The notes beneath the pieces were generated by a model. It was given only the letters and a program-made list of their open reading frames with translations, did no database searches and was not told the DNA's origin. From IMG/VR virus record IMGVR_UViG_3300024264_002160, positions 1 to 58,963 of that record: a stretch of 58,963 nt of DNA. One strand, written 5' to 3'. Below, piece by piece: positions 15,193-53,767 of the stretch (its first letter is position 1; every line of letters begins with the position of its first letter). The translations under genes were made by a program, and so were the position numbers. This DNA is from a virus.

Positions 15193-16758
15193 TTGGACTA
15201 CTTTAACAGTGCAAAAGAAGCACGAGAAAAACTAAACGCAATTTCTCCATCAATGTGTATGGCAAAGTGGTTACAGGTAAGTTTGCACTTACCACAAGGA
15301 AGAACACATAGTTGTTACCATCCTCCCACACATGCGATTCCATTGGATGAACTTAAAGCTAATCCCAATGCATTGCATAATACAAAATTTAAAATGCAAG
15401 AGCGAAAGCAAATGCTAAATGGTGAGCGGCCCAAAGGATGTGAGTACTGTTGGAATGTAGAAGATGCACCAAACCCACCACAAGATGGTAGACTTAGTGA
15501 CCGGCACTACCGTTCAAGCGAATGGTGGGTTAAAGATGCATGGGATGAAGTTGTTAATAATCCCTGGGATCATGACATCAAACCACGTTATGTAGAAGTA
15601 AATTTTAACCAAGCATGTAATTTAAAATGTAGCTATTGCAGTCCACACCTAAGTAGTGCGTGGGAAGAAGATGTTAAAAAGAACGGTGGATTTTGGTTTA
15701 GCAATGGCACAGGACACAATGACACAAGCTATCTAAAACGTAGTGGGCTAATGCCATTGGAAGTCGCACGTAAGGATAATCCATATGTTGAGGCATTTTG
15801 GAAATGGTTCCCAGATATATACCGTGGACTAAAGGTATTTCGCATGACCGGTGGCGAGCCTCTTATGGACAACAATACTTTTAAAGTATTAGATTATGTC
15901 ATTGATAACCCTAATCCACAATTAGATTTAAGTATCACTAGTAATATGTGTCCCCCATCAAACAGTTTGATGGATAAGTTCATTGACAAAATTCGTAAAC
16001 TAGAAGAAGTAAGAGTATGGGAAGACCATATAAATCTTAATCCAGACAGTGGTAATGAATGGTATGTAGCACCAGCTTGCAAGCACTTTAGTTTATATGT
16101 TAGTGTAGATGGAGTTGGTGATCAGGCAGAGTATATGCGTGATGGTTTAGATTTTGACACAATGTATAACAATTGCAGACGGGTACTAAGTGAAACTAAC
16201 GGCACTGAAATATCTTTCATCAATACGTTTAATTTATTAAGTATTCCAAACCTACGTGGATTTTTGAATATGATATTAAAACTGCGTGAAGAATTTGGTT
16301 ATGAAAATCAGACTGATATTGAGATACAGCCGCCAGATAGAAACGGATTTGTACATCCAAAATTTATTCGTAAGCGCCGTCAGCGCATATGGTTTGATAC
16401 ACCATACTTAAGATACCCAGACTGGATGACTATTCAACTAGCTGATCAATCAATGCGTAGTCTTATACAAGAAAATATCGACTTTATGCACGACAACGTC
16501 TTGCCTGATGACGAGTACGGACGCAAGTATACTGGATTTAAAAATTATGAAGTTGCTAAAATGGAACGTGACTTAGCATGGGCCAAAGAGGGACTAAATA
16601 TTGATGAAGAGAAAAGAAACGATAACTTTATTCGATTTTATGAATATTTTACTCAATACGACAAGCGAAGAAATTTAAACTTTCTGGATACATTTCCAGA
16701 AATGGCTGAGTTTTGGAATCGCTGTAAAAAATTAAAGGAAAAAAAATATGGGCCGTAA
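15193..16758 (+). CDS. Radical SAM protein, N-terminal twitch type (SCYHPP variant)
   Basis: 521 residues from TTG 15193, with AGGAT at 15182-15186 upstream. The radical SAM motif is C142-x3-C146-x2-C149, followed by SPHLSSAW, and GGEP lies at 220-223. The auxiliary-cluster (twitch) residues lie before the barrel: C22, C41 within SCYHPP, C83 and C86. This N-terminal placement fits the twitch-domain radical SAM family (N_Twi_rSAM type). Most neighbours have CC where this protein has S-C-x-H-P-P, so a histidine may be a ligand (inference). A DGVGDQAEYMRDG segment is kept in the barrel. Substrate unknown; such enzymes usually modify peptides or small metabolites. Confidence 0.92.
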   Translation: MDYFNSAKEAREKLNAISPSMCMAKWLQVSLHLPQGRTHSCYHPPTHAIPLDELKANPNALHNTKFKMQERKQMLNGERPKGCEYCWNVEDAPNPPQDGRLSDRHYRSSEWWVKDAWDEVVNNPWDHDIKPRYVEVNFNQACNLKCSYCSPHLSSAWEEDVKKNGGFWFSNGTGHNDTSYLKRSGLMPLEVARKDNPYVEAFWKWFPDIYRGLKVFRMTGGEPLMDNNTFKVLDYVIDNPNPQLDLSITSNMCPPSNSLMDKFIDKIRKLEEVRVWEDHINLNPDSGNEWYVAPACKHFSLYVSVDGVGDQAEYMRDGLDFDTMYNNCRRVLSETNGTEISFINTFNLLSIPNLRGFLNMILKLREEFGYENQTDIEIQPPDRNGFVHPKFIRKRRQRIWFDTPYLRYPDWMTIQLADQSMRSLIQENIDFMHDNVLPDDEYGRKYTGFKNYEVAKMERDLAWAKEGLNIDEEKRNDNFIRFYEYFTQYDKRRNLNFLDTFPEMAEFWNRCKKLKEKKYGP

Positions 16759-18322
16759 GCATTGGGAAGGCGAAACCCTTCATGAATTTAAAGAGCGTAT
16801 AATTGATCCGATTAGTAAATCGTATTGTGCTGCAAAATGGTACAATGCTACTATTTGGTTAGGACACGGCCAAACTACAAGTTGTCATCACCCGCCGGGC
16901 CATTGGATTCCTCTTGAAGAACTAGAAGATAATCCTTCAGCAATTCATAATACGCCACATAAGAAAAAGATGCGTAAGATGATGCAAGAGGGTGAACGTC
17001 CCAGTGAGTGTGAGTACTGCTGGAAAGTAGAAGATATGGGTAAAAACAATATCTCTGATAGAGTATTTAAAACTGAGATATTTTCAGATAAAGACATCAC
17101 TGACAGTGCGGTAGCTAATTGGGACGAAAATGTTATGTTACGTACACTTGAGATTAGTTTTGATAGAGCATGCAACTTAAAGTGCAGTTATTGTAATCCT
17201 GCTTTTAGTACAGCATGGGTTAAAGACATTAACACATTTGGTGCATATCAAAATATACAGAGTGATGGTCGTGGACATTTCATCGACACTGCTCCATGGG
17301 CTGCACCAGCGGCCAAAAAAGAAGCAAATAATCCGTATATTCAAGCATTTCACAAATGGTGGGAAACTGGGCTAGCAGATAATTTGGAAGAAATACGCAT
17401 TACAGGCGGAGAGCCAATCATGCATGCCAGTACTTGGAAGTTGTTTAACTGGTTTGAGCAAAACCCTCAACGTGGCAGAAGTATGAGGTTTGCTATTAAT
17501 AGTAATCTTAGTCCAGAAACACCCAAGGTATTGGACAAGTTAATTGATAAAAGTTGGCACGTTCCAAATTTTGAAATCTATACAAGTTGTGAAGCAGCAA
17601 AAGATCAAGCTGAATACATACGTGATGGATTGCGATATGACTTATGGATGAATAATATACATCGAGTGCTAAAAGAATCTAATGTTAGTAAAGTACACAT
17701 GATGATGACAATTAATGCACTATGCTTAACTACAATCACAGAGTTTATGGATGAAATGTTAGATCTTCGCGAAGAATATGGTCGCAGAGCGCCGACAATG
17801 ACATTAAACATTTTACGTTTTCCTAGCTTCCAAAGTTGTGCAATTATTCCAGTGGAAATAAAATCATACTATAAAGATAAATTACAAGATTGGTTTGATA
17901 GTGATCGTCCAATTGATATGTTAACTGATGCTGAGAAAGAAAGTATACAGCGATTAATTAATTATTTGGATATTGTAAAAACTCCACATAAAAATACAGC
18001 AGACATGCCCAAACTATACAACGATTTTAAAGCATTCTTTGCACAGTATGACATACGTAGAAATAAAAATTTCGTGGAAACTTTCCCCGGTCCATTTGCT
18101 GAATGGTTTGAAAGTATTGATGCTGTTGTACCAACTCGAGAACAAATTGAAAACAAAGAAATTATGTTTGTAAGTGATAGAGCTGGTGATCCAGCCACTA
18201 CTGAAGAATATGCAGGCGGTGATGATGAGCATGAACATGAAGATTACAGTGAACAAAAATTTCATGGGGGTTGGGATACTGAAACAGACGGACTGGGTGG
18301 AATATCTGTAGATGAAGCGTAA
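16748..18322 (+). CDS. Radical SAM protein, N-terminal twitch type (SCHHPP variant)
   Basis: 524 residues, closest in the window to its upstream neighbour, which it overlaps by 11 bases. Cluster motif C142-x3-C146-x2-C149 and GGEP 220-223 are at identical positions. Twitch residues are C27, C46 (in SCHHPP), C88 and C91. The usual S-x-D-G segment of the barrel is changed to TSCEAAKDQAEYIRDG. An acidic, His-rich tail of about 50 residues (DDEHEHEDYSEQ near residue 500) is absent from the paralogue. The pair probably arose by tandem duplication. Confidence 0.92.
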   Translation: MGRKHWEGETLHEFKERIIDPISKSYCAAKWYNATIWLGHGQTTSCHHPPGHWIPLEELEDNPSAIHNTPHKKKMRKMMQEGERPSECEYCWKVEDMGKNNISDRVFKTEIFSDKDITDSAVANWDENVMLRTLEISFDRACNLKCSYCNPAFSTAWVKDINTFGAYQNIQSDGRGHFIDTAPWAAPAAKKEANNPYIQAFHKWWETGLADNLEEIRITGGEPIMHASTWKLFNWFEQNPQRGRSMRFAINSNLSPETPKVLDKLIDKSWHVPNFEIYTSCEAAKDQAEYIRDGLRYDLWMNNIHRVLKESNVSKVHMMMTINALCLTTITEFMDEMLDLREEYGRRAPTMTLNILRFPSFQSCAIIPVEIKSYYKDKLQDWFDSDRPIDMLTDAEKESIQRLINYLDIVKTPHKNTADMPKLYNDFKAFFAQYDIRRNKNFVETFPGPFAEWFESIDAVVPTREQIENKEIMFVSDRAGDPATTEEYAGGDDEHEHEDYSEQKFHGGWDTETDGLGGISVDEA

Positions 18323-19700
18323 TATACCTATATGGAATGATGATGGCAGCTGTAATGAAGAAAGTGAAAACAAAACTTTCTGTATGGCACCCTGGACACA
18401 CACCTACATATCACCACAAGGCGAACGGCGTATGTGTTGTGCTAGTAGAGAAGAGCATAGTTTTCAAAAACAATATATTGATGCTACAAATGATGAAAAG
18501 TACGGGGAGATACGTGAAAGCGAAACCGAAGCCGACAAATTTAATCCACAAACATTAACTGAACACTGGAACTCTCCTTATATGCGAGATATTCGCAAGA
18601 AGCTAATGGCTGGAGAACGTATTAGTCAGTGTGATGTTTGTAATGATGATATTTTAAGTATTAGTAGTTACCGTAAGTGGTTTACTGGTGTATTGTTTAA
18701 AGACAAGATTCAAGAAGCATTTGACAAAACTGACGATGATGGGTATACTACAATGCCCACTATTAGCTTTGACTATCGTTACTCGAACTTGTGTAACTTC
18801 AAGTGTCGTATGTGTGGAGAGCAACTCTCAAGTGCATGGGAAGCTGAAAAGAAAAAGCATGACATGTGGAGCCCAGAACATCAGCCATTTATGATTCCTG
18901 AAGTAAAACGTAAAATGAACGCCTTTCAGAAAGATGTTGCTGAGCCTGAATTTAAACAAGCCATTAGTGACGGTATTGTAGAAGAAATATACTGGGTAGG
19001 CGGTGAGCCACTTATGTATGATATACACTGGTGGGCATTAGAAGAGATGACTACTAACGGTAGTGCTAAAAACTGTTATTTGCGTTATAATAGTAATCTT
19101 TCAAGGATTGACTTCAAGGGAAAAAACTTGTATGATTACTTACCACAGTTTAAAGACTGGCTAATGTGTGCAAGTATTGACGGCACAGGAGATATTGTAG
19201 AGTTTATACGCAAAGGGATCGTATGGGAAGAGTGGTTAGCAAACTTTAAGCAAGGATTGGAATTGCCAGGTGGCAAAGAAAAAATGCGGTTTGATTTAAC
19301 TATCACTGGTCCTGGTATGTTTAGTTTACGTGATTTATTTGATCTGAGTTTAGAATTAGATGTAAGTATGGAAACTAAAATTATGTTTGCATTCCATCCG
19401 GATATTGTGTTTAGTCCATTCGCTTGGCCCAAACATATATTACACAGGCATATTGATGAACTACTTGCATACATGGAACCACGTGCTACTTGGAGACAGC
19501 AGACCTTAATTAATACACTGCGTGAAATGAAAAATAGACCAACATTTGATGAACAGTTTCCAGACACACATGAACAACAATTTAAGAATGGCAAGGGGTA
19601 TCAGGATCGTTTAGACCAAATACGCCAGGAACAGTTTAGATTAGAAGATATATATCGCAACGACGATGAGTTGTATAATTGGTGGAAACGTTTTGAATAA
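18312..19700 (+). CDS. Radical SAM protein, N-terminal twitch type
   Basis: 462 residues, ATG 18312 overlapping the previous gene by 11 bases. Twitch cysteines C24 (FCMAPW), C42/C43, C107 and C110 precede the radical SAM motif C161-x3-C165-x2-C168; GGEP is at 230-233. After the third cysteine comes G-E-Q-L-S-S-A-W, the local version of the family signature. The barrel keeps SIDGTGDIVEFIRKG, where most relatives have EY. Confidence 0.92.
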   Translation: MKRNIPIWNDDGSCNEESENKTFCMAPWTHTYISPQGERRMCCASREEHSFQKQYIDATNDEKYGEIRESETEADKFNPQTLTEHWNSPYMRDIRKKLMAGERISQCDVCNDDILSISSYRKWFTGVLFKDKIQEAFDKTDDDGYTTMPTISFDYRYSNLCNFKCRMCGEQLSSAWEAEKKKHDMWSPEHQPFMIPEVKRKMNAFQKDVAEPEFKQAISDGIVEEIYWVGGEPLMYDIHWWALEEMTTNGSAKNCYLRYNSNLSRIDFKGKNLYDYLPQFKDWLMCASIDGTGDIVEFIRKGIVWEEWLANFKQGLELPGGKEKMRFDLTITGPGMFSLRDLFDLSLELDVSMETKIMFAFHPDIVFSPFAWPKHILHRHIDELLAYMEPRATWRQQTLINTLREMKNRPTFDEQFPDTHEQQFKNGKGYQDRLDQIRQEQFRLEDIYRNDDELYNWWKRFE

Positions 19701-20895
19701 TAACCTTTGTATACTCCCATGGATACACTTACACGCATTTGCCAATGGCGATGTGTATCCTTGTTGTATGGCTGATTACAATTACAAATTAGGAAACAGT
19801 AGAGATCAAACCTTTACTGATATATGGAATAGTGATGGTATGAAAGAGTTGCGTGTGTCAATGATAAACAATCAGAAACACAGTGCATGTAACAAATGTT
19901 ATAATATTGAAAACAGTGGCGGAACAAGTATGCGTCAAAACATGAACGCTCAATTCAGTCATAAATTTACAAATGTGGATACTACACACCCAGATGGCAC
20001 TGTGGACAAAGTTGATATGGCATACATGGATATAAGATTTAGCAACATATGTAACTTTAAATGTAGAAGTTGTGGCCCAACGTTTAGTAGTCAGTGGAAA
20101 GACGAATGGGAACAACTGTATACAGGTGGTACCTGGCCACGCATAACACGTGTTAAAAATACTCTGGAAGAAGTGTGGGAAGATATCGAAACTTGGATTG
20201 ACACTGTGGAAAATATTTACTTTGCTGGTGGCGAACCATTAATAATGGATGAACATTACAAAATTCTAGAGTACCTTATTGCTAATAATAGAACTGATAT
20301 TAATATAAGTTATAATACTAATATGAGCACACTTGCTTATAAAAAATACAACTTGATTGATCTATGGCAGAATTTTAAAAATATAAGGATTGATGCCAGT
20401 TTAGACGGTTATGGAAAGCATGCTGAATACATACGTGCTGGCACTGACTGGAACCAAATTGAGAAAAACATAGAGCATATCAAATTACACTGTCCTAATA
20501 TTGTATTGTCAATATCATGCACTGTAAGTATATACAATGCATTTCATTGTATTGACTTTATTAAATATTGCATTGACAAGAAGTTTGTAGATTGTGGTGA
20601 TATGATTAATATTAATCTGGTACAGTTTCCTGAGTTATTAAACACACAGGTATTACCGATTCATTTAAAAAATCAAGTGGTAGAAAAGGTCAATAAATAT
20701 ATACAAGATGATATACCAGAATACAACACATCATTGCTTAAGAATAATCTAAGAATGTATCAAAAATTTTTACTAGATCAAAATATAGATAAGTTTGATG
20801 AGTTTGTTGGCTGGACAAAAAAATTAGATGAGATACGAAATGAAAATGTCATCGATATCCTGCCTGAAATCAAGGACTTAATAGATGACCGATAG
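19693..20895 (+). CDS. Radical SAM protein, N-terminal twitch type
   Basis: 400 residues if started at TTG 19693, which has GGTGGA at 19681-19686 upstream and overlaps the previous stop by eight bases. An ATG at 19666 would add nine residues but lacks a ribosome binding site. Twitch cysteines are C6 (CILPW), C24/C25, C66 and C69. The radical SAM motif is C120-x3-C124-x2-C127 followed by GPTFSSQW, with GGEP from 179. The SLDGYGKHAEYIRAG segment is present. It is one of the shorter and most canonical members. Confidence 0.92.
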   Translation: MNNNLCILPWIHLHAFANGDVYPCCMADYNYKLGNSRDQTFTDIWNSDGMKELRVSMINNQKHSACNKCYNIENSGGTSMRQNMNAQFSHKFTNVDTTHPDGTVDKVDMAYMDIRFSNICNFKCRSCGPTFSSQWKDEWEQLYTGGTWPRITRVKNTLEEVWEDIETWIDTVENIYFAGGEPLIMDEHYKILEYLIANNRTDINISYNTNMSTLAYKKYNLIDLWQNFKNIRIDASLDGYGKHAEYIRAGTDWNQIEKNIEHIKLHCPNIVLSISCTVSIYNAFHCIDFIKYCIDKKFVDCGDMININLVQFPELLNTQVLPIHLKNQVVEKVNKYIQDDIPEYNTSLLKNNLRMYQKFLLDQNIDKFDEFVGWTKKLDEIRNENVIDILPEIKDLIDDR

Positions 20896-22120
20896 ATTTA
20901 AAGATAACAAAGCGATCTGCGCCGCACCCTGGACACATTTACACGTACAGCCTGATGGTAAAGTATATCCATGCTGTACTGCATTAGAGCCTGAAGTTAC
21001 ATACGGCAATACACATGAAATGACGATACAACAAGCATGGCACAGTGATATTGCTCAGAGATTTAGAAAAAATCTATTGGAAGGCAAAAAACAACCAGCA
21101 TGTAGTGTATGTTATAATCAAGAAAAATATTATCAAGATGGCGGCAGTCTACGCACTAGTTTAAATAACAGATATGGAGAATTCATTACTGATAACCTTA
21201 CTCCAGATTTTCATATTAAATATCTAGATGTTCGTAGTAGTAATACATGTAACATGGCATGCGTTATGTGTTATCATGGTCTTAGCAGTAGCTGGTATGA
21301 AGACGGTCTTGCAATAGATTTTGGTGTGGAACCTAATAGTCCAAAGTTTATTGAAATAAACAATGCTGCAGAAGCTGAGATTTTAAAAATTGTAGGTTCA
21401 GATTTAGATATAGTATACTTTGCAGGCGGTGAGCCTTTGCTTACCCCATATCATTATACTGTCTTGGACTATTTAATAGAGCAAGACCTTGCTAAAAATA
21501 TTAGACTAGAGTACAATACTAATTTAAGTGTACTCAGGTATAAAAAGCGTAATGTATTTGATATATGGAAAAACTTTAAGTCAGTTGAAATCAGAGCTAG
21601 TGTCGATATGATGGGAGAACATGCAGAATATCAACGTTACGGCACCAAATGGGATACTATTGTAAAAAATTGGAAAGAAGTACTAACATATCCAGACATA
21701 GTAATAAGGCCACAAATTACAGTTACATCACTGAGTATTGGAGTACTGCCAGAGTTTTTAAATTTTTTAACAACTGAGCTTGAGTGTAAAATCGATCGAT
21801 CCAAAGGTATTAATGGTATAACTTTTAATTTATGTTATGGGCCTAACCGACTATGTGTGCAAAATTTACCAGACAGTATTAAGAAATTGTATACAGACAG
21901 ATTGACTACATTTATACAGCACGGTAACGATTTGGCTAATACAATGTTGCAACCGTGTATTGATTTTATGAATGAAAAACCAGCCACATCATGGTATTTT
22001 GAACATGACTTATTACGTTATATGACACAGTTAGATGAACGTCGTGGATTGAATTGGAAAAAATTATGGCCAGAATTTATTCCACATTTTAAAAAGGAAA
22101 TTATGCATGAGCAACACTGA
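20885..22120 (+). CDS. Radical SAM protein, N-terminal twitch type
   Basis: 411 residues, overlapping the previous gene by 11 bases. Twitch cysteines are C12 (CAAPW), C30/C31, C73 and C76. The radical SAM motif is C122-x3-C126-x2-C129 followed by YHGLSSSW, and GGEP is at 181-184. The barrel segment is SVDMMGEHAEYQRYG. The C-terminus has the L-D-x-R-R-x-x-x-W-x-x-x-(F/W)-P-E pattern that closes most members of this group. Confidence 0.92.
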   Translation: MTDRFKDNKAICAAPWTHLHVQPDGKVYPCCTALEPEVTYGNTHEMTIQQAWHSDIAQRFRKNLLEGKKQPACSVCYNQEKYYQDGGSLRTSLNNRYGEFITDNLTPDFHIKYLDVRSSNTCNMACVMCYHGLSSSWYEDGLAIDFGVEPNSPKFIEINNAAEAEILKIVGSDLDIVYFAGGEPLLTPYHYTVLDYLIEQDLAKNIRLEYNTNLSVLRYKKRNVFDIWKNFKSVEIRASVDMMGEHAEYQRYGTKWDTIVKNWKEVLTYPDIVIRPQITVTSLSIGVLPEFLNFLTTELECKIDRSKGINGITFNLCYGPNRLCVQNLPDSIKKLYTDRLTTFIQHGNDLANTMLQPCIDFMNEKPATSWYFEHDLLRYMTQLDERRGLNWKKLWPEFIPHFKKEIMHEQH

Positions 22121-23420
22121 TACCAAATGCCCGTTACCTTGGATGCATACTAGTATACAAACGTCTGGAGCATTACGAAGTTGTTGTATTGCCAGTGACT
22201 TAGTACGCCATGACGGCGATATTGTCAATATTAAACATACTAGTCTGTCAGAAGCAATCAACAGTAGTAGTATGCAGGAACTACGTGATAGCATGCGCCG
22301 TGGTGAGAAACACAGTAATTGTAGTACTTGTTGGAAAGATGAAGAAAATGGTAAAATTAGTAAAAGAATGTATGAAACAGCATATCTCAAGGACACACTA
22401 AAGAATACGATACAACAAGGTGATTCAATTAGTATACAACAACACAATACATTGGATTATGATAGTGAGCCAACACGGTATCTTGACATTCAATTGGGTG
22501 TTGGCAATGTGTGTAACTTAAAATGCCGTACCTGTAGTCCTTATTGTAGTACAAAATGGATTGATGAATTTAAACACCGTACTGGTGAACAAAAATATGA
22601 GTTCAATAATTTAGAAGTTGATAAGAGTATTACTGACAGTAAATTTTGGGAAGAATTGGACGAATGGAGTAGTACAGTAAAGCGTCTGGAAATTATGGGC
22701 GGCGAGCCGTTTTACATGAAAGAATTTCATATACTAATAGATAAACTTATCGCCAATGGCAATAGTAAACATATAACACTGGCAATGAGTACAAATGGTA
22801 CAATTTTTAATGAAAAGTTATGCAATAAGATACGAGAAAACTTTAAATCTTTAGGTTTGAATGTCAGTATAGATGGAATTGGTAAACACTTTGATTTCCT
22901 TAGACATGGCAATAACTGGGACAAGGTAAAGAAAAATCTAGACGGATTTTATGAAATGTTTCAGAAACATGAAAATTTTAATATGGGTGCCACAATTACT
23001 ATTAGTCAGATTAATATGTATTACATACGAGAGATACATGAGTTTTTTGAACAAAACTATCCTGATATCGATCATGGCACACATTATAGTACATTCAATA
23101 TCTTTAATAATATTATACATTATCCTAGCTATTATAGCAGTAATACTATGCCAGCTGATCTTAAAGAGCATTATCTACACAAGATTAAGTACCCTTCAAA
23201 TTATGGACTGTCCGATTGGAACGAAGACAAATTTCAACAACAAATACAGCCATTGATAAATCACGTATTAACACCAACTAGTTATGTGGACTGGCGGGAT
23301 TTTATAAGAGAAACAAATTCAGCTGATCAATATCGTAATGAAAATTTTCAAGAAACTTTTCCTGAGCTATGGGAAATGTTTAAGCCCTACTGGCATTTAA
23401 TGGAGGACATTAAATGGTAA
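22107..23420 (+). CDS. Radical SAM protein, N-terminal twitch type
   Basis: 437 residues, overlapping the previous gene by 14 bases. Twitch cysteines are C8 (CPLPW), C26/C27, C72 and C75. The radical SAM motif is C136-x3-C140-x2-C143, with an additional C147 in SPYCSTKW. GGEP starts at 198. A SIDGIGKHFDFLRHG segment replaces the usual EY-x-R with DF-x-R. All cluster ligands are intact. Confidence 0.92.
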   Translation: MSNTDTKCPLPWMHTSIQTSGALRSCCIASDLVRHDGDIVNIKHTSLSEAINSSSMQELRDSMRRGEKHSNCSTCWKDEENGKISKRMYETAYLKDTLKNTIQQGDSISIQQHNTLDYDSEPTRYLDIQLGVGNVCNLKCRTCSPYCSTKWIDEFKHRTGEQKYEFNNLEVDKSITDSKFWEELDEWSSTVKRLEIMGGEPFYMKEFHILIDKLIANGNSKHITLAMSTNGTIFNEKLCNKIRENFKSLGLNVSIDGIGKHFDFLRHGNNWDKVKKNLDGFYEMFQKHENFNMGATITISQINMYYIREIHEFFEQNYPDIDHGTHYSTFNIFNNIIHYPSYYSSNTMPADLKEHYLHKIKYPSNYGLSDWNEDKFQQQIQPLINHVLTPTSYVDWRDFIRETNSADQYRNENFQETFPELWEMFKPYWHLMEDIKW

Positions 23421-25766: not shown

Positions 25767-26586
25767 AAAAGAAGTCCCTAGCCATTTGATACCCGGTAAT
25801 TTTTCATACAGCTTCGACGAAGCTCTTCAAATTGAAGATTCAACACGTACCCCATTGGACACTGATTGGAAAAATAAAACTATCATACCATTTTTTGGGT
25901 GCAGTTTTACATATGGACCAGGTCTGACATACAACGATGTGTTCACCAATATGATACAAAATAAATTACAGTCGGATCATTTAGCATTAAATATAGGATC
26001 ACCAGGTGGTAGTATGGATCTGATAACACGGGTCATAACCCAATATTATAATAGAATAGAGTTAAAAAATAGCAAAATTATGGTAATCAATATCCCACCT
26101 ATCAATCGGCGTGAACATTTTTATAGTTTAACAGCCAATTACGATAATCCAAATTGGAGAAAAGAGAGTGTATATGAAAGTAAAATAGAATCTCGGCGTC
26201 TACTTCCAAGTGTTATTAACAAAGCTATGGCTAACGAAGATTGGAGAAGTTATATTCATTTATCAAATCCAGTAACAGATCTTAATAATTTTGAACGCAA
26301 TCTTGTATTTCTATCCAACTTTAGTAAAGCAAACAACATTAAAGTTTTTTTATGGGGAGAGAATGCTGTCCAAAGTAGTATGGTTTGCTCTGCAGATATG
26401 CAACGTATCAGAGCCTATATACATAAATTGGGATTAAAAGCAATTGATATATCAGAAGTTGTTTTGCCCGATCCAAATGACTCGTCCAAATATGTTATAA
26501 GTGAGACTGACCGTCACTACAATAAACTTGGAAACCAAATTATTGCAGATCGTATATACGATTCAATCCAACAATATCTCAACTAA
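25756..26586 (+). CDS. SGNH/GDSL-type hydrolase-like protein
   Basis: 276 residues from ATG 25756, overlapping the previous gene by 11 bases. The block I nucleophile appears as FFGCSFTYG (Ser at about residue 50), block II as NIGSPGGS, and the C-terminal acid/base pair in ETDRHYNKLGNQ. The family includes esterases and acyl- or acetyltransferase partners acting on glycans. No signal peptide, so it acts in the cytoplasm or on assembling product. Its 3' end overlaps the convergent gene on the minus strand by 24 bases. A second, more canonical member is at 58228. Confidence 0.7.
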   Translation: MENEKEVPSHLIPGNFSYSFDEALQIEDSTRTPLDTDWKNKTIIPFFGCSFTYGPGLTYNDVFTNMIQNKLQSDHLALNIGSPGGSMDLITRVITQYYNRIELKNSKIMVINIPPINRREHFYSLTANYDNPNWRKESVYESKIESRRLLPSVINKAMANEDWRSYIHLSNPVTDLNNFERNLVFLSNFSKANNIKVFLWGENAVQSSMVCSADMQRIRAYIHKLGLKAIDISEVVLPDPNDSSKYVISETDRHYNKLGNQIIADRIYDSIQQYLN

Positions 26587-29387: not shown

Positions 29388-29413
29388 GTTTAATCCTATA
29401 TTAACTACATACT

Positions 29414-29421: not shown

Positions 29422-29435
29422 TAATTACAAATGTA

Positions 29436-46225: not shown

Positions 46226-46878
46226 TAATAGAAAATAGTCAGGATATAATTGAATTTAATTTGCCAGATGACTTTAATAAAATAGGCATTAAACTGAGTG
46301 GTGGAGCAGACAGCGCAATAGTACTTTATATGTTGTGTAAGTATATCACAGAAACTAATAAAGAATGTGAAATTATTCCAATGACAGTTTGTCATGCGGG
46401 CAAGGCGTATCAGCTACAGTTTGCAACCAAAGTGATTTTCTTTATGGAAGAAACATTTCCTGGTATTAAATTTGGTATACATCCAACTGGTGTAAATTAT
46501 CATGGTGAAAGTTATGATTTGGTACAGCAAAAAGTAGTAGACAGCGCATATCGCAACAACCAAATAAACTGTCATTATGTGGGAATTACTAAAAATCCTC
46601 CCAGTGATGTAATGATAGCATTTGATCAAAATGGTCCTGTTGATGATAGAAATTCTGACACTGTTAAGCCAACTGTACGAGGCGGGCATGTGTTTTTACC
46701 TTTAATTAACATAGACAAACAGGGTGTAAGAGAACTGTATGAAAAATTTAATCTTATGGACACACTGTTTCCACTAACAAGAAGTTGCGAAGTATTCACC
46801 GACGACTTTAGCAAGCATTGTGAAACAGACTGTTGGTTTTGTTTAGAACGATATTGGGGGTTTGGTAGATATGAATGA
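46222..46878 (+). CDS. PP-loop ATPase, QueC-like
   Basis: 218 residues, ATGA overlap with the previous gene. The PP-loop SGGADS at 26-31 follows a hydrophobic strand, as in N-type ATP pyrophosphatases. The C-terminus has C189, C200, C204 and C207 in a C-x10-C-x3-C-x2-C pattern, like the zinc site of 7-cyano-7-deazaguanine synthase (QueC). No other queuosine or deazaguanine gene was recognised in the window, so the exact reaction (nitrile formation, amidation or adenylation of a cluster product) is open. Confidence 0.7.
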   Translation: MIIENSQDIIEFNLPDDFNKIGIKLSGGADSAIVLYMLCKYITETNKECEIIPMTVCHAGKAYQLQFATKVIFFMEETFPGIKFGIHPTGVNYHGESYDLVQQKVVDSAYRNNQINCHYVGITKNPPSDVMIAFDQNGPVDDRNSDTVKPTVRGGHVFLPLINIDKQGVRELYEKFNLMDTLFPLTRSCEVFTDDFSKHCETDCWFCLERYWGFGRYE

Positions 46879-48049
46879 TATAATATGTCCATTGGTATAC
46901 AACGGTATTGCTACAGATCCCAGTGGAGGAGTAAGACCTTGCTGTGTGTTTGATCAGAAATACAACTACAGAGGCAGCGTAGCAGAATACAAAGACAGTA
47001 AATTATGGAAAGAAATAGAACAAGACTTTCTAAATGGAAAGTACCATGTTGGATGTCATCACTGTGAAAGACAAGATTCTGCCGGAAGTAGTAGTAAGCG
47101 TACCAGAGAGGTTCGAAACTATCTAGAAAAATACAAACGTGACACAGTTGATTTAGAACATTTAAAAAGTATTGGATATGATTTAATTGATCTGAGGCTC
47201 AGTAACAAATGTAATCTAAGTTGTATTACCTGTAACCCCAAAAGCAGTAGTATGATATTTGATGAAACAAAAAAGCACTACGATGATACAATGTTTCACT
47301 ACAAGAACATATATGATTTAACCAAACACAGGGACTTAACCAATCCTTACAGTGATAAAAATATAGAAGATCTACTAAGTTGCATGAACAAAACCAGTAG
47401 ATTATATTTTACAGGCGGCGAACCCAGTGTTGTTAAAGGTGTACTTAAAATACTACAGAGATTGATTGACGAAGGTCTCAATGAAGATGTAGAAATAGAA
47501 TTTAACAGTAACTTTCAAACAACCAATCCCAAGTTTATAGAGCTGTTGAGTCATTTTCCTAGTGGACTTATGATGCCCAGCATTGACGGTGTTGGAGTGA
47601 GAGCAGAATATATACGCTACCCTAGTAATTGGGATATAGTTCATAAAAATATGAAGTACTTCACTGAACGATGTCCGGGTTGGCGTTTTCATGTAGCGCC
47701 TACTGTGAGTATACTAAGTTTGTTTTATCTAGACGAACTGTTAGAATATTGCTATAGAAATAATTATTTTTTAACTTTTACTAATATGTTATGGGGTCCG
47801 ACGTATTTAAATATCAGCAACATACCAGAAAAATACAAAGAGATAGCGATGAATAAATTAAGTAATATGGAAAAGCATATGAAAGTAAGAGGCTTAAAAA
47901 ATATAGAAACTTATCTTTACAGTGCAGATACAGATCTAGAACTGTTATCAAATGCTAGAAGCAATTTAAATAGACTTGACAAAATAAGAAAAAACAGCTA
48001 TCATGATAGCCTGCCAATACTAAAGGAGATGTTCGACGAATGCTTGTAA
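46871..48049 (+). CDS. Radical SAM protein, N-terminal twitch type
   Basis: 392 residues from ATG 46871, which has GGGGG ten bases upstream and overlaps the previous stop by eight bases. Twitch cysteines are C6 (CPLVY), C24/C25, C62 and C65. Radical SAM motif C114-x3-C118-x2-C121 followed by NPKSSSMI; GGEP 182-185. SIDGVGVRAEYIRYP is well kept. Its last ten bases overlap the mini-SDR gene, the same arrangement as 50902/52110. Confidence 0.92.
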   Translation: MNDIICPLVYNGIATDPSGGVRPCCVFDQKYNYRGSVAEYKDSKLWKEIEQDFLNGKYHVGCHHCERQDSAGSSSKRTREVRNYLEKYKRDTVDLEHLKSIGYDLIDLRLSNKCNLSCITCNPKSSSMIFDETKKHYDDTMFHYKNIYDLTKHRDLTNPYSDKNIEDLLSCMNKTSRLYFTGGEPSVVKGVLKILQRLIDEGLNEDVEIEFNSNFQTTNPKFIELLSHFPSGLMMPSIDGVGVRAEYIRYPSNWDIVHKNMKYFTERCPGWRFHVAPTVSILSLFYLDELLEYCYRNNYFLTFTNMLWGPTYLNISNIPEKYKEIAMNKLSNMEKHMKVRGLKNIETYLYSADTDLELLSNARSNLNRLDKIRKNSYHDSLPILKEMFDECL

Positions 48050-48594
48050 TAGGAAATAAAGAATATGGATTAGCAGAAAGTATTGCTAAACTTTATCCAC
48101 ATGCAGAATACTACAGTAGATCCAGTGGATACAACATGGGAAAGCGTGATGTTAGACAGCAAGCGAGTGGAAAATCACTAGACCACGACGTGGTAATACT
48201 ATGTAGCGCATTAGGTGACTTTAGTCAAGTGTTACTTGCTGAAGCTATAGCAAAAGAATGGGTTAAAAATAATCACCAAGGTTATCTAATAGCCGTTGGA
48301 AGTAGTGCAGACACACCTGTTAAAGGATCCCAATGGATTTACCCTGTTGAAAAACGTGCATTGCGAGCATATATGAGACAACTCAGTCAAGCATGCAGTA
48401 GTGATACTCCACCCGCTTGCAAAACAACTTACATTGCTCCGGGCAATATGCATACTCCTAGACAAGATGAAAAAATGCCCGACACTCTGAAGTTAGACAC
48501 AGACTATGTTGCTGGTGTAATTAAATGGTTAATAGATCAACCTCACAATGTTAATATCAGTGAGCTATGTTTGGATCGTATTCAAAAAGTGTAA
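48040..48594 (+). CDS. Mini short-chain dehydrogenase/reductase-like protein, copy 1
   Basis: 184 residues, well below the usual 250 of the SDR family. The N-terminal strand-turn is VIGNKEYGLAESIA (GxxxxGLA, replacing TGxxxGIG). Ser is at 88/89 in AVGSSAD, and Y101-x3-K105 lies in WIYPVEKRALRAY, the classical Ser/Tyr/Lys site. It shares these positions exactly with the 52110 protein. It overlaps the preceding radical SAM gene by ten bases and the convergent gene by 13. Likely an NAD(P)-dependent oxidoreductase acting on the product of the adjacent enzyme (inference). Confidence 0.65.
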   Translation: MLVIGNKEYGLAESIAKLYPHAEYYSRSSGYNMGKRDVRQQASGKSLDHDVVILCSALGDFSQVLLAEAIAKEWVKNNHQGYLIAVGSSADTPVKGSQWIYPVEKRALRAYMRQLSQACSSDTPPACKTTYIAPGNMHTPRQDEKMPDTLKLDTDYVAGVIKWLIDQPHNVNISELCLDRIQKV

Positions 48595-49748
48595 TAGGGA
48601 TAAACTGTTTTAAAATCCTGCGATCTAGACTTATCCCAAAAAGCAGTGTGTGATTTAAACTTATCTAAGATATTGGATTTATCTTCACTGTACATGTATG
48701 TTAAAATATAGTCACATAGATTTTTAATAGTTTCATTTTTGTAGTTGTAGTTGTGATATTTTTGTTTTATAATATCTTTTTGACTCTGTGGTAACACTGT
48801 TAACCCCAAATACAATGGAAACGTTAGGTGTGTAGGGTTTAACATAATATTTCTATCATCCAACCATTCAAGTGTTTCAGGCAAATGATAAGCATTATAG
48901 ATTGTAACCGTGGGTCTTGCTACCACAGTCATTCCAACAGTGTCTGCTATTTCTACATATTTGTCAATATTTTTCAGTGCGCTTTCGTGATTGGTCAAGT
49001 GTCGTTGATATTCATTTTCTTCTTTAATAATACTATCTAAACTAACAGCAAGTTCAATATGGTCAAACTCTTTCCATATATCTACAATTTTCTTCTTGGG
49101 CCACACTGTACAATTGGTACTATAGTTTAATCTTATGTTTTTAGCATAGCCCTTTTCCACAGCATGTTCTATTAGTTTCCAATGATCAGGAATAATAAGG
49201 GGCTCGCCGCCTGTAAATTTAATATATTTCATATCCTTTAGATGAGGGTATATACTATCTAAATTTGCTTTTGTATGTTTTATCTTAGAGCCAGGTTCAC
49301 TGCCAATAGCCTTTCCAACAAACGTTTTGCCATGATATTCTTGTTCTTCATCAAACAGTTTAAAACTATATCGACTGTCGCACATTCTACACATAAGATT
49401 ACAGTCGTTACTTAGGCTAAGTTCCAAGTATTCTAACTTATAATTTTCAGTATCAACAGTTTTAGCGCCAACTTTTGGATGTTCGTTGAGACGCATACGT
49501 AAACTTTTTTTATTGTTGTCTTCTTCTTCATAGCAACGTGTACATCCTTCCAATCTTTCTCCAGCAAGTATACGCTTGCGAAGATCGTTTTGAAAGTCAC
49601 TGTCGAATATTTCCTGGATACTATAATTATCCAGTGTATGATCTTTGGGACGATAGTCTTCTAAGAATCTACAACAGGGCTTTACTCTACCGGTACCGTC
49701 TACCATCTGGTGATTCCATAATACTGAACAAAAGGTTTTATTTTCCAT
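48582..49748 (-). CDS. Radical SAM protein, N-terminal twitch type (only minus-strand member of this type)
   Basis: 388 residues from ATG 49748; an ATG six codons upstream (49766) lies ahead of the TATAAATA. Twitch cysteines are C7 (CSVLW), C25/C26, C69 and C72. Radical SAM motif C116-x3-C120-x2-C123 followed by DSRYSFKL, without the SSxW signature; GGEP 180-183. The barrel segment SLDSIIKEENEYQRHL lacks DGxG. It stands alone on the minus strand between two plus-strand genes, so it has its own promoter. Confidence 0.92.
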   Translation of the reverse strand: MENKTFCSVLWNHQMVDGTGRVKPCCRFLEDYRPKDHTLDNYSIQEIFDSDFQNDLRKRILAGERLEGCTRCYEEEDNNKKSLRMRLNEHPKVGAKTVDTENYKLEYLELSLSNDCNLMCRMCDSRYSFKLFDEEQEYHGKTFVGKAIGSEPGSKIKHTKANLDSIYPHLKDMKYIKFTGGEPLIIPDHWKLIEHAVEKGYAKNIRLNYSTNCTVWPKKKIVDIWKEFDHIELAVSLDSIIKEENEYQRHLTNHESALKNIDKYVEIADTVGMTVVARPTVTIYNAYHLPETLEWLDDRNIMLNPTHLTFPLYLGLTVLPQSQKDIIKQKYHNYNYKNETIKNLCDYILTYMYSEDKSNILDKFKSHTAFWDKSRSQDFKTVYPYYTF

Positions 49749-49753
49749 AAATA
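49746..49753 (+). promoter_or_regulatory. Late-promoter-like CATAAATA, half of a divergent palindrome
   Basis: One mismatch from the octamer. Predicted start near 49759; ribosome binding site GGAG at 49781-49784; start TTG at 49790. With the minus-strand element it forms a perfect inverted repeat, ATAAATA-TATTTAT (49747-49760). Confidence 0.55.
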
Positions 49754-49761
49754 TATTTATA
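49754..49761 (-). promoter_or_regulatory. T4-type late promoter TATAAATA (minus strand)
   Basis: Exact octamer on the minus strand. By T4 spacing the transcript would begin at 49748, the A of the ATG of the minus-strand radical SAM gene, that is without a leader. Confidence 0.55.
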
Positions 49762-49789
49762 TACATATATAATTACAAAAGGAGCAATC

Positions 49790-50914
49790 TTGGAACCCGT
49801 AGCAAGTTATTTTAAATGGAACCCAACTGGCGCATTTAGCGTTGACTGGTATATAGGTAAACGTTGTAACTTTAGTTGTAGTTACTGTGTGGATTATCTA
49901 CATGATTATACAAGTCCACACGTGCCATTGGAAAATATGAAACAGTTAGTAGATGTAATTTATGAAAAAGAAGGCTCGAATGTACTGTGGAGTTTAACCG
50001 GTGGTGAGCCAACAATTAATCCAAAGTTCTTGGATCTATGTGCGTATATACGCAGTAGAGGCAGACGTTATATCAGTGTTACAACAAATGGTTCACGCAC
50101 ACTACAGTATCACAAAGACATGTTTGATCTAGTAGATGGTATTACACAAAGTTTTCACTTTGAGTTTATGGAAGATCGTATAGATGAATATATAGAAAAG
50201 TTTATTGAATTAGAAAAATATAGATTAGAATTAAACAGCAAGTTAGCTAAAGGTGAACCTAAGAAAACACTTATACTTAGATTTATGGTCGAAACTGGAC
50301 AGTTAGATAACGTAGATCGTATGGATCGAGCATACAGAGCTGCTGGTATTACTAATATAGAACATAGATATATCAGACCGCCTGGTAAAGACAAAGGCAA
50401 AGGTATGCAACCAGAAGAGAAGTATAAATTTAAAGATAAAAAAGACCCTAACCAAATTACTGATAAAGCAAAAGTAGAAAAAATAGAATCTAAAGAAGCA
50501 AGTTATTATGGACATAACGAACAAGGTGCTATTAAAGAAATATATCGTAGTACAGCAGACCCTGACAAACGTAAATTAAAGTTTTGGTTTCAGGACAGCA
50601 ACGGCGAATACCACGAAGAAGATTATCACTACAATGAACTAAACTACGATAAAAAGAATAATTACGAAGGCTGGATATGCTGGGCAGGTATGAAACATTT
50701 AAAAGTTACACCCACTGGCGACATATACATTGGCAGTTGTCATGTTGGTGGTAAGCGTGGTAACGTATATGAAAAAGATAGTATTGATTTGCCAACTGAG
50801 CCTATACGTTGTAGCAAATGGCGTTGTACAGACAATACAGATTTAAAAGTACCCAAGATCAAAGATTGGGATCATTACCATTTAGTCAAGGACATGATAG
50901 AATGGAAACCATAG
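49790..50914 (+). CDS. Radical SAM protein, short GGEPT type
   Basis: 374 residues from TTG 49790, preceded by GGAG. Radical SAM motif C26-x3-C30-x2-C33; GGEPT 71-75. A charged Lys/Glu-rich insert at about residues 195-245 (GKDKGKGMQPEEKYKFKDKK) lies between barrel and tail. C-terminal cysteines in GWICWAG, IGSCHVGG, RCSKWRC give the probable auxiliary site; the G-W-x-C-x-A-G motif is shared with 37475 and 52655. Preceded by a divergent late-like promoter. Confidence 0.9.
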   Translation: MEPVASYFKWNPTGAFSVDWYIGKRCNFSCSYCVDYLHDYTSPHVPLENMKQLVDVIYEKEGSNVLWSLTGGEPTINPKFLDLCAYIRSRGRRYISVTTNGSRTLQYHKDMFDLVDGITQSFHFEFMEDRIDEYIEKFIELEKYRLELNSKLAKGEPKKTLILRFMVETGQLDNVDRMDRAYRAAGITNIEHRYIRPPGKDKGKGMQPEEKYKFKDKKDPNQITDKAKVEKIESKEASYYGHNEQGAIKEIYRSTADPDKRKLKFWFQDSNGEYHEEDYHYNELNYDKKNNYEGWICWAGMKHLKVTPTGDIYIGSCHVGGKRGNVYEKDSIDLPTEPIRCSKWRCTDNTDLKVPKIKDWDHYHLVKDMIEWKP

Positions 50915-52113
50915 CCAATCCACCCACACTGTGTAGTTTAATGAGCTACAATATTAGAGTGGATCATATACGTAGAAGAATAGCAAGATGTCCCAAGCAA
51001 GAAGGTGTTGAATTAAGTGCTGAATACTTGAGAACACACGGTGCTGACGTGTTTAATCATCAGCACTTTGCACTTGCACTAGAAGATATGAAATTGAATC
51101 AAACAGCTAATATATGTAGAATGTGTCATCCAAGCTACAGAGACAGTAAAAATGAATGGCAAACAACTGAATGGAGTGTGAATAATTTTAAAAATTTAAA
51201 AATAAACACAACACCGGCAGCCATATGTGATTATATTTTCAGTGATGTGTGCAACATGACCTGTATGTATTGTGACGCTCATCACAGTAATCTGTGGGCT
51301 AAATTAACAAATAACCCTCAGCCAATGAATCAAGAATGGGATAGCGCAGCAGAAGACTGTTTAGTTGATTACTTAAATCGTTATATTATAAATCAAGTGC
51401 CTCAATTTAGATTACAGATGCTAGGCGGTGAACCGTTATTGAATTGGAATAAACTAGAAAAGTTTTTGTTACGTATTACTACAGTGTTTGAACACACTGA
51501 TACTAGGCTGACCATTGCCGTTATCAGTAACTTAAATGTACTACAAAAGAATGTAGAAAATTTTGTTAAATTTAGTGAGCAACACAATATTCAAACAGAG
51601 ATACAAGGCAGTATAGACACTGTAGGAGATACAGCAGAAAACATTAGAACAGGTTTAAACTTTGATCTGTTTGTAAGCAACATGGATATATTTGCTAGTC
51701 GTAGTCAAATACAGTGCAGTATCAATGCTAGTGTTAATCTATTAAGTGTGAGTACAATGCCCCAACATTATCAATACTGGACTGATTATGCAGTGCGTCA
51801 TCAACGCACACTTGGCAAAGATTTTTTGTTTGGTAACAATACTGTTACTAATCCTAAGAGCATGAGTATTACAATATTACCTAAATCATACATAGATTAT
51901 ATAGAAAAGTCAAGAGAAATATTAAATAAAAGTTTTAGCGATAACTCATTTAAACAAATACTGAATCGAAGGTTTGATATATTAGCTAATAATATTGGTA
52001 TTGACAGAAATGAAAAAAATTTACAAAATGCTAAACAGTTTTATACACAGCAAGGACTACTCAAAGGTATCGATTACTTTGATGTATTTCCAGAATTAAA
52101 TAGTATATTATGA
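50902..52113 (+). CDS. Radical SAM protein, N-terminal twitch type (divergent)
   Basis: 403 residues from ATG 50902, with AAGG about ten bases upstream. An open extension back to 50818 overlaps the previous gene and lacks family features. Candidate twitch cysteines are C11, C30, C72 and C75: the usual CC pair is a single cysteine. Radical SAM motif C117-x3-C121-x2-C124 followed by DAHHSNLW; GGEP 175-178. SIDTVGDTAENIRTG is recognisable. It is followed, with a four-base overlap, by a mini-SDR gene. Confidence 0.88.
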   Translation: METIANPPTLCSLMSYNIRVDHIRRRIARCPKQEGVELSAEYLRTHGADVFNHQHFALALEDMKLNQTANICRMCHPSYRDSKNEWQTTEWSVNNFKNLKINTTPAAICDYIFSDVCNMTCMYCDAHHSNLWAKLTNNPQPMNQEWDSAAEDCLVDYLNRYIINQVPQFRLQMLGGEPLLNWNKLEKFLLRITTVFEHTDTRLTIAVISNLNVLQKNVENFVKFSEQHNIQTEIQGSIDTVGDTAENIRTGLNFDLFVSNMDIFASRSQIQCSINASVNLLSVSTMPQHYQYWTDYAVRHQRTLGKDFLFGNNTVTNPKSMSITILPKSYIDYIEKSREILNKSFSDNSFKQILNRRFDILANNIGIDRNEKNLQNAKQFYTQQGLLKGIDYFDVFPELNSIL

Positions 52114-52658
52114 TTATAACAGGTAACCCACAAAAAGGTTTAGCACATAGTCTACATAAGATATATCCTGACGCAGTATATTGTAGTCGAGCTAGTGGAC
52201 ATGAACTTACTAGTAACAAAGGTATGGACGAATTTGCGCAGTTAGCCGCACAACATGATACTATTATTATTAATAGCGCACTATGGCGCTTTCATCAAAC
52301 TGTACTACTGGATTTAGTATACAAGGCGTGTAGAACCGCCAACAATGACGCACATATTGTATGTATAGGCAGTACCACAGACAGAACTAGCAAAGGCACG
52401 GCATGGCTATATAATGCTGAAAAGAAAGCACTCAGAGATTATTGTAATAGTTTAGCATTGGTGGGAGTGTGGCACAGTGGCCCTAGAGTAAGTTTAATTA
52501 GTTTTGGTACGCTGAGTAATAATCAAGAGAAACACCCTGACAGAGTATGTATGGATATAGATGAAGCAGCTTCATATATCAAGTGGTTGACAGAGCTTCC
52601 TAAGCATGTTACAATAAATGAAATAAGCATGGATCCTATGCAAAAGAGAGTAGTATGA
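52110..52658 (+). CDS. Mini short-chain dehydrogenase/reductase-like protein, copy 2
   Basis: 182 residues, paralogue of the 48040 protein. It has the strand-turn IITGNPQKGLAHSL, Ser 88 in CIGSTTD, and Y101-x3-K105 in WLYNAEKKALRDY. Short ATGA-type overlaps on both sides show translational coupling to a radical SAM gene upstream and another downstream. The canonical TG start of the SDR glycine motif is better kept here than in copy 1. Likely redox partner step in the tailoring pathway (inference). Confidence 0.65.
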   Translation: MIITGNPQKGLAHSLHKIYPDAVYCSRASGHELTSNKGMDEFAQLAAQHDTIIINSALWRFHQTVLLDLVYKACRTANNDAHIVCIGSTTDRTSKGTAWLYNAEKKALRDYCNSLALVGVWHSGPRVSLISFGTLSNNQEKHPDRVCMDIDEAASYIKWLTELPKHVTINEISMDPMQKRVV

Positions 52659-53767
52659 CAGAAGATTTAAAATGGAGCAATTATGACTTTACCAAAATAC
52701 CGTTTGACGACATTGTTAGTGTTGGTCAGCGTACTTTGTTGTACCGTGATCTATTCACTGTCAGCTGGCTGCTCGGAAGATTCTGTAACTACAAATGCTC
52801 CTACTGTTGGCCTTATGCCCGTAGTGACCGTAAAGACCATCGTCCTACCGAACTATGTGTCAAAACAATTGACGAAATAAAGAGGCAAGCACGTGAAAAC
52901 GGATTTAATAGCTTTCATTTTTCTCTTAGTGGTGGTGAGCCTACTTTTCATCCTGGGTACCTGGACATTCTACAACATCTGGCTGATGACATAGACAACA
53001 CAAACTATACTAGCGTTCACATGACATCAAACTGTAGTCGACCAATGAAATGGTTTGAGGACTATGTAGAACGAGTAAAACCTTTCCATAGAGCTAGTAT
53101 AACAGCTAGTTTACACACAGAACACTTAAATACACTTGACAAGCTACAGGAGTTTGCAAACAAACTCATATTATGTCAGGAGCATGATGTACAGGTCACC
53201 ATCAATATGGTTATGGTTCCGGAATGGTTCGAAAGGGATTGGGAAAATGCCTTGTTCTTCCACGAGCAAGGAATCAACGTCACACTCAAGCCACAAAGTG
53301 ACCCAACGGCGTCAAGAGTCGTGGAAGGTTATACGGACGAGATGTTACAGCGATTGTATAACGGAATGCCGCAAATGGCGTATACTGAAACAAAACGTAA
53401 ATGGGCAGCACGCCCAAGGCCTAGTTTCGAACTGCCGCCAGAAACACTAGGCGAAAACGACAAGAGCGTGCCTTGGCATATGCAAGTAGAGTTTCGGGAC
53501 AGTACTGGTAAGAAATGGTACATGGATCAAGCAGAACGCTTTAATGCTTTTAACTTTAATGAGTTTAAAGGCTGGAGTTGTAATGCTGGTTACAGTGGCA
53601 TTATTATACGTGAACCAGATGGCAGTGTCAAGCGTAGTTATAGTTGTGCTGATGTACCATTAGGTAATATTGAGACAGGATTTAAACTGTTTGATAAGCC
53701 TAGAGTTTGTATTAGCGATAATTGTGTAAGTAGTGCTGACAGTAAAATACCCAAGAGAAAAATATGA
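52655..53767 (+). CDS. Radical SAM protein, short GGEPT type (GC-richer)
   Basis: 370 residues. It has an N-terminal extension of about 35 residues, the radical SAM motif C44-x3-C48-x2-C51 followed by WPYARSDRK, and GGEPT at 93-97. C-terminal cysteines in GWSCNAGYSG, YSCADVPLG and VCISDNCVSS are the probable auxiliary site. Base composition stands out: 60 of 120 bases at 53221-53340 are G/C, against 12 of 60 at 51901-51960 in the gene before last. It resembles a radical SAM protein that I recall from other marine phages, so recent transfer is plausible. Confidence 0.9.
   Translation: MTEDLKWSNYDFTKIPFDDIVSVGQRTLLYRDLFTVSWLLGRFCNYKCSYCWPYARSDRKDHRPTELCVKTIDEIKRQARENGFNSFHFSLSGGEPTFHPGYLDILQHLADDIDNTNYTSVHMTSNCSRPMKWFEDYVERVKPFHRASITASLHTEHLNTLDKLQEFANKLILCQEHDVQVTINMVMVPEWFERDWENALFFHEQGINVTLKPQSDPTASRVVEGYTDEMLQRLYNGMPQMAYTETKRKWAARPRPSFELPPETLGENDKSVPWHMQVEFRDSTGKKWYMDQAERFNAFNFNEFKGWSCNAGYSGIIIREPDGSVKRSYSCADVPLGNIETGFKLFDKPRVCISDNCVSSADSKIPKRKI

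Follow-up and report, generated by a model that had tools for sequence, protein, structure and literature searches.

Several phages rich in radical S-adenosylmethionine (rSAM) genes have been described. According to the accessible portions of the reports, the Campylobacter phages CP220 and CPt10 encode 11 and 12 rSAM proteins, respectively, described as an exchangeable module (PMC2853527), the T4-like marine genome TARA_ERS488813_N000010 carries 12 rSAM genes together with Fe-S assembly genes (PMC5332604), and in pelagimyophages a hypervariable host-recognition region combines tail-fibre genes with neighbouring rSAM cassettes and glycosyltransferases (PMC7029224); PMC3322345 belongs to the same prior art. 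In this study, we analyzed the IMG/VR virus record IMGVR_UViG_3300024264_002160, a 58,963-base fragment and not a whole genome (hereafter the window, at its full length), which carries an island of 21 rSAM genes at 15193-53767. Since rSAM-rich phages had already been published, this count is an extreme of a known phenomenon, and an earlier reading made from the letters alone (the sequence-only reading), which had called such a load in a single phage striking, needs this correction. What appears to be undescribed is a conserved core module within the island, for which we found no description in the open-access literature (subscription papers were outside the scope), together with a small protein that it encodes and its link to Bdellovibrionota. 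Our analyses suggested that the island might be a cytosolic glycan-tailoring pathway whose product decorates a virion adhesin, a reading to which we give a probability of roughly 0.42.

A scan of open reading frames (ORFs) for the CxxxCxxC motif identified exactly 21 rSAM genes, named here by their first coordinate. They comprise 13 of the N-terminal twitch (N-twitch) type (15193, 16748, 18312, 19666, 20885, 22107, 23414, 41092, 42498, 43810, 46862, 48582 on the minus strand, and 50818), four of the GN(x)GD type (24567, 38415, 40058, 45167), three of the short GGEPT type (37475, 49790, 52655) and one of the B12 type (31116, minus strand). Pfam Radical_SAM matched 20 of the 21 proteins at E<=0.01; 24567 gave no such match and a weak SPASM one only, and was assigned to the GNxGD group by motif and alignment. 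The NCBIfam model NF033640 (N_Twi_rSAM) matched 19 of the 21 at E<=0.001, and 12 of the 13 N-twitch proteins, in which a SPASM-like domain precedes the radical SAM domain, exceeded its curated whole-protein cut-off of 170 bits, with 50818 falling short at 137.7 bits. The B12-type protein scored 249.5 bits against NF033712 (KedN5-type B12 rSAM C-methyltransferase), below the cut-off of 700. These profile searches, which the sequence-only reading had itself named, agree with its 13/4/3/1 split, with the N-terminal twitch architecture and with its statement that no radical SAM cluster cysteine had been lost (21 of 21 motifs complete). Its picture of a single combinatorial set gave way to a conserved core operon, a second block and a flexible remainder: the rSAM genes fall into two blocks, A and B, each with separate orthologues, and its gene list, correct for the 21 rSAM genes, had overlooked both this division and a small gene at 37257-37478.

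The enzymes are intact. In all 13 N-twitch proteins, C15, C33, C75 and C78 (twitch) and C129, C133 and C136 (radical SAM) are invariant, and a 154-row alignment of the window proteins and their relatives kept these seven Fe-S cysteines in its filled columns, except for one serine at C78. Orthologues of more than 40% identity were found for 16 of the 21 genes in related virus and bacterial loci, and the nonsynonymous-to-synonymous ratio across these 16 was 0.08-0.56 as pN/pS and 0.03-0.34 as dN/dS where dS was unsaturated, so these 16 genes are under purifying selection and decay is ruled out for them. The earlier claim of selection over decay therefore stands for 16 genes, and the dN/dS test did not reach the other five (20885, 22107, 24567, 31116, 50818), which had no orthologue above 40%. 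The alignment of all 13 N-twitch proteins was too divergent to serve as a scan query. A FastTree phylogeny of 209 proteins, the deep branches of which were not relied upon, showed the closest tip for every one of the 13 copies to come from another genome; recent tandem duplication is thereby ruled out, a tree being the check that the sequence-only reading had named for separating duplication from import. Judged from their sequences, the copies are old, distinct lineages common to other phages and Bdellovibrionota, so the gene number would reflect many separate enzymes and not expansion within this phage. The island might otherwise be a non-functional pile-up of mobile gene copies, in keeping with the strong variation of non-core gene content among relatives; in view of the invariant cysteines, the dN/dS values, the lack of decayed copies in the window and the conserved, selected core, this explanation was already disfavoured and is highly improbable.

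Gene comparison with about 20 relatives showed that some genes are common to nearly all marine relatives and others come and go. The core of block B consists of 34649, 35310/36311, 38415 (D1) and 41092 (N1), often with 33029 and 52655 (T1) as well. N1-type genes occur at no fewer than 594 virus loci, i.e., at least 594, and among the best 80 of these we counted the 38415 type in 77, a glycosyltransferase-like gene in 75, a methyltransferase-like gene in 61, the small protein in 53 and the 52655 type in 28, the last figure being probably an undercount as the gene lies near the edge of the DNA examined per locus. Of 64 virus loci with 6.5 kb or more of upstream sequence, 55 kept the order glycosyltransferase, methyltransferase, D1, N1; in the same N1-seeded analysis the small protein lay between methyltransferase and D1 at 46 loci, and fused glycosyltransferase-methyltransferase ORFs occur among the virus loci. 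The structure predicted for 34649 had glycosyltransferases as its top Foldseek matches (probability 0.99, with low TM-scores of 0.3-0.4), and its alignment holds a DxD-like motif; neither the glycosyltransferase nor the methyltransferase-like family had a sequence match in the PDB. Block B contains the following genes (profiles, Pfam and NCBIfam):

33029-34540, + strand, carbamoyltransferase (Nol-like; PF16861, PF02543; phrog_1601)
34649-35356, + strand, core, probable GT-A glycosyltransferase (AlphaFold2 model, predicted local distance difference test (pLDDT) 90.5; Foldseek)
35310-36311, + strand, core, SAM-methyltransferase-like by inspection, paralogue of 36311 (alignment)
36311-37270, + strand, core, SAM-methyltransferase-like by inspection (alignment)
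37257-37478, + strand, core, small 73-aa three-helix protein, TTG start
37475-38422, + strand, short GGEPT rSAM (profiles, alignment)
38415-39491, + strand, core, GNxGD rSAM, D1 (alignment)
39501-40070, + strand, oxygenase-like by inspection (no Pfam match)
40058-41068, + strand, GNxGD rSAM (profiles, alignment)
41092-42501, + strand, core, N-twitch rSAM, N1 (bacterial homologues)
42498-43817, + strand, N-twitch rSAM (profiles, alignment)
43810-45186, + strand, N-twitch rSAM (profiles, alignment)
45167-46225, + strand, GNxGD rSAM (profiles, alignment)
46222-46878, + strand, weakly PP-loop ATPase-like (QueC/TilS-like; matches below all cut-offs)
46862-48049, + strand, N-twitch rSAM (profiles, alignment)
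48582-49766, - strand, N-twitch rSAM (profiles, alignment)
49790-50914, + strand, short GGEPT rSAM (profiles, alignment)
50818-52113, + strand, divergent N-twitch rSAM, under the NF033640 cut-off
52655-53767, + strand, core, GGEPT rSAM, T1 (57-70% identity in bacterial loci, up to 88% in phages)

Two related genes resembling short-chain dehydrogenases/reductases (SDR-like; 48040-48594 and 52110-52658) each lie just upstream of an rSAM gene, and the 52110 type adjoins the 52655 type in several relatives. Three virus contigs (L193, L198, L205) carry ClpS-like genes and the glycosyltransferase-methyltransferase-D1-N1 order without the small protein; a PaaD/SufT-like gene was seen in L193 and L205, and DnaK in L205. 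A T4-like label for these contigs is not established by their DnaK, aldehyde dehydrogenase-like and DNA ligase genes.

The small-protein gene sits between 36311 and 37475, overlapping the next start codon by ATGA, and its product is cysteine-free and conserved over its full length. Relatives are encoded at 502 or more virus loci (at least 502); in loci seeded with this protein, a methyltransferase-like gene lay immediately upstream in 69 of 80 and an rSAM gene downstream in 67 of 69. The protein is predicted to form a compact three-helix fold (pLDDT 91.9) that had no PDB match at E<=0.001. None of the 192 Bdellovibrionota genomes sampled yielded it, in a search that had no internal positive control. 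An N-terminal motif common to 36311 and the small protein occurs only in the window and a near-identical record. We infer that the protein may be a phage-specific recognition or scaffold partner. The role of precursor of a ribosomally synthesized and post-translationally modified peptide (RiPP) was rejected for it, as a predicted folded, cysteine-free protein conserved end to end is unlike a leader-core precursor. The arrangement that marks a RiPP cluster, a short precursor peptide gene beside an rSAM maturase, was not seen in the window, and when the small ORFs around the core were compared across 110 loci, the only conserved one beside rSAM genes was this predicted-folded 73-aa protein.

These observations bear on the main rival explanation, in which the rSAM set acts in the manner of rSAM peptide maturases and directly alters residues of a virion protein or of the 73-aa protein itself (by cross-linking, epimerisation or C-methylation). 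In its favour, additional conserved cysteines of twitch/SPASM type, which peptide maturases typically have, occur in the N-twitch, GNxGD and GGEPT proteins; many such maturases were also matched weakly in NCBIfam, and the small protein is locked beside rSAM genes. Nevertheless, the named maturase models all stayed under cut-off for the members scanned, no second conserved small ORF was found beside the rSAM genes, and the small protein is wholly conserved, well folded by prediction, devoid of cysteine and absent from the bacterial triads. We consider protein modification a rather unlikely account, though the strongest competitor.

In the glycan-tailoring pathway that we favour, the core's probable GT-A glycosyltransferase, methyltransferase-like protein, small helical protein and GNxGD, N-twitch and GGEPT rSAM enzymes would together build one unusual sugar or glycan substituent. 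The rSAM enzymes with auxiliary Fe-S clusters would abstract hydrogen from unactivated C-H bonds, the transferases would attach methyl, carbamoyl and sugar groups, block A and the flexible genes between core members would make additional lineage-specific changes, and the product would be destined for the virion adhesin encoded by genes just upstream. We infer both a sugar as the substrate and the virion as the destination; the target proposed in the sequence-only reading, a surface protein or glycan of the virion, would be plausible. A glycan is suggested because of the glycosyltransferase fold prediction, the carbamoyltransferase, the UDP-sugar dehydrogenase, the absence of membrane enzymes, the adjoining fibre genes and the GT2 genes in two bacterial loci, and the pathway as a whole is supported by the conserved core order, the glycosyltransferase-methyltransferase fusions and the purifying selection. 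A crude hydropathy scan of the window proteins gave no convincing transmembrane segment; its highest value, 1.62, belonged to an SDR-like protein that is soluble. A cytosolic substrate is therefore probable.

Several points weigh against this pathway. The Foldseek TM-scores of the modelled glycosyltransferase are low, SPASM/twitch rSAM enzymes of known function act mostly on peptides, the region behind fibre genes also houses exchangeable phage cargo, and several bacterial triads adjoin housekeeping genes (MoxR/DUF58, PheT, Hsp90) and not polysaccharide genes. A glycan could also belong to the host: lipopolysaccharide or capsule might be remodelled in infection, e.g., excluding other phages. 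Such a role has some precedent in a comparable proposal for pelagimyophage lipopolysaccharide genes, in the accessible part of that report (PMC7029224), and GT2 genes adjoin the triad in two Bdellovibrionales loci. On the other side, neither a membrane glycosyltransferase nor a flippase or polymerase was found among the window proteins by hydropathy, and O-antigen conversion usually requires a membrane enzyme unless host machinery is used; we therefore regard host-surface remodelling as unlikely, slightly more so than protein modification. Less probable still is chemistry on nucleic acids or small molecules, giving hypermodified bases, modified tRNA or a diffusible compound. The weak QueC/TilS similarity of the PP-loop ATPase 46222 and a QueC-like gene near rSAM genes in phage KVP40 speak for it; the match of 46222 lies under all cut-offs, no replication or base-modification genes were recognised in the window, and the island adjoins fibre genes.

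Counterparts of the core were found in bacteria. One scan of genome contigs gave 30 loci with 41092-type genes. Most of these loci carried the labels Bdellovibrionales, Bdellovibrionia, Bacteriovoracaceae or Oligoflexia, and many also had genes of the 38415 and 52655 types close by; Bdellovibrionota contigs hold such N1/D1/T1 triads without the small protein, and these bacterial genomes carry up to 20 N-twitch genes each. In the Bdellovibrionota sample, 56 of 192 genomes matched at E<=1e-30 (9 of them already found by the contig scan) and 55 of these also at E<=1e-60, a threshold passed by 2 of 200 genomes in the phylum of a Neisseriaceae metagenome-assembled genome (MAG) and 1 of 198 in that of a Flavobacteriales MAG; all counts include the centre genomes. 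The bacterial matches are mostly MAGs, in which phage contamination is possible, and two loci with the small protein (L138, L139) look like phage DNA. One contig carrying block A homologues is 2.66 Mb long, which makes at least this set chromosomal. GT2 glycosyltransferase genes adjoin the triad in two Bdellovibrionales loci (L141, L146), the latter additionally with asparagine synthase-like and acyltransferase-SGNH genes. In a Bdellovibrionales MAG (L156; JABGUH010000022.1, 7477-21289), a PheT-encoding gene precedes rSAM genes of the N1 and T1 types, behind which come homologues of window genes 9885, 11170, 11518, 12402 and 14202, their order unchanged; this locus could be a prophage or a domesticated tail region, and offers a host lead. 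Bdellovibrionota, a phylum with many predators, may include the hosts of these phages. Tentatively, and with a fairly low probability, the core might be an undescribed biosynthetic system that makes a new virion decoration. It would have spread through uncultivated aquatic phages by the hundred, its helical partner protein being confined to phages, and would exist in a bacterial form in Bdellovibrionota, possibly the hosts.

PHROGs and tblastn matches of the genes upstream support the earlier claim that the island follows virion structural or fibre genes:

183-8159, + strand, 2658-aa virion structural protein (phrog_10938, E=5.7e-181; tblastn to PA5oct, 121Q, SCTP-2 and relatives)
8210-8815, + strand, virion structural protein, homologue of CBB gp230 (phrog_11259; 46% to the Pectobacterium phage CBB structural protein)
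8819-9883, + strand, fibre-like, weak Peptidase_G2 (intramolecular chaperone; Pfam E=4.1e-5, below cut-off; PHROGs tail fibre/structural)
9885-11099, + strand, probable variable fibre/adhesin (position conserved in relatives, 27-35% there; no family)
11518-14205, + strand, three conserved genes (11518, 12402, 13222; orthologues in relatives, no informative family match)
14202-15188, + strand, GT-A-like glycosyltransferase, paralogue of 34649 (aligned family with DxD motif; 65-71% in marine relatives)

By inspection only, 11518 and 12402 are also glycosyltransferase-like, and the claimed mixture of glycosyl-, carbamoyl- and methyltransferase-like genes was indeed present. The structural proteins are homologous to those of jumbo myoviruses of the PA5oct/121Q/CBB type, and the phage lineage is one of uncultivated aquatic jumbo myoviruses; phage CBB has no radical SAM annotation in the stretch around its matching structural gene. 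N-twitch genes were present in 28 of a set of 30 records (the window, the near-identical record reached via 19666, and relatives found via the structural gene 8210); when the near-identical record is set aside, their number reached 18 in a partial contig. In records G003 and G007, N-twitch matches lie inside open frames of 842 and 879 aa, possible two-copy fusions.

Block A (15193-24610) has orthologues of its own in two virus records (G009, G002) and in bacterial DNA. Its genes and those up to block B are:

15193-16758, + strand, N-twitch rSAM, block A (Pfam/NCBIfam, alignment)
16748-18322, + strand, N-twitch rSAM, block A (profiles; 49% homologues in a bacterial chromosome)
18312-19700, + strand, N-twitch rSAM, block A (profiles; 49% in a bacterial chromosome)
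19666-20895, + strand, N-twitch rSAM, block A (NF033640, 420 bits)
20885-22120, + strand, N-twitch rSAM, block A (profiles, alignment)
22107-23420, + strand, N-twitch rSAM, block A (profiles, alignment)
23414-24610, + strand, N-twitch rSAM, block A (profiles, alignment)
24567-25766, + strand, GNxGD-type rSAM with C-terminal SPASM-like cysteines (motif, alignment)
28161-29453, - strand, UDP-glucose/GDP-mannose dehydrogenase-like (PF03721, PF00984)
31116-32987, - strand, B12-binding rSAM, KedN5-like, below that family's cut-off

The 15193, 16748, 18312 and 23414 types stand in tandem in a Bacteriovoracaceae MAG contig (L162) and on the 2.66-Mb contig of the same phylum (L252-L253). Two genes are SGNH-hydrolase-like by inspection, 25741-26586 (no Pfam or NCBIfam match) and 58228-58833.

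What began as the odd observation of a single phage with many rSAM genes has become a defined and testable pathway of about six core genes whose order is conserved in uncultivated viruses. If the pathway makes a sugar, the virus particle would carry a glycan built by radical chemistry. The shared genes offer a lead to the phage hosts as well as to an rSAM gene set of Bdellovibrionota that is itself unexplained. The module is widespread in virus loci yet without close homologue among 50,697 GenBank phage records, where N1, D1, T1 and the small protein gave weak matches (22.8-25.1% identity) or none.

With respect to known systems, NF033640 takes in 12 window proteins and is a family name only, with no substrate stated. 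Among isolated phages, N-twitch ORFs occur in Vibrio phages K566 (five in the stretch examined) and KVP40 (three); their best matches to the window are only 21-26% identical, and the stretches show no core operon and no annotated adjoining fibre genes. K566, with a 255-kb genome, carries its five ORFs near nicotinamide metabolism genes (161527-178915 of its record) and is a tractable relative; the well-studied KVP40 has its three, the QueC-like gene and NadV in one region. TARA_ERS488813_N000010 is likewise a single viral genome with several rSAM genes, 12 in its case (PMC5332604). The pelagimyophages are a different phage group, and the core module is not among the features given in the accessible part of their description (PMC7029224). 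CP220 and CPt10 differ from the window in having fewer rSAM genes and an amidinotransferase; homologues of N1, T1 and the small protein were not found in them, and the closest match, 24% over 76% of 38415, is not close homology. They are like the window in organization: several rSAM genes are clustered, and both tail genes and two genes resembling nucleotide-diphospho-sugar transferases lie close by. The window likewise has its adjacent rSAM genes, and genes for sugar transfer among them, in the neighbourhood of tail genes.

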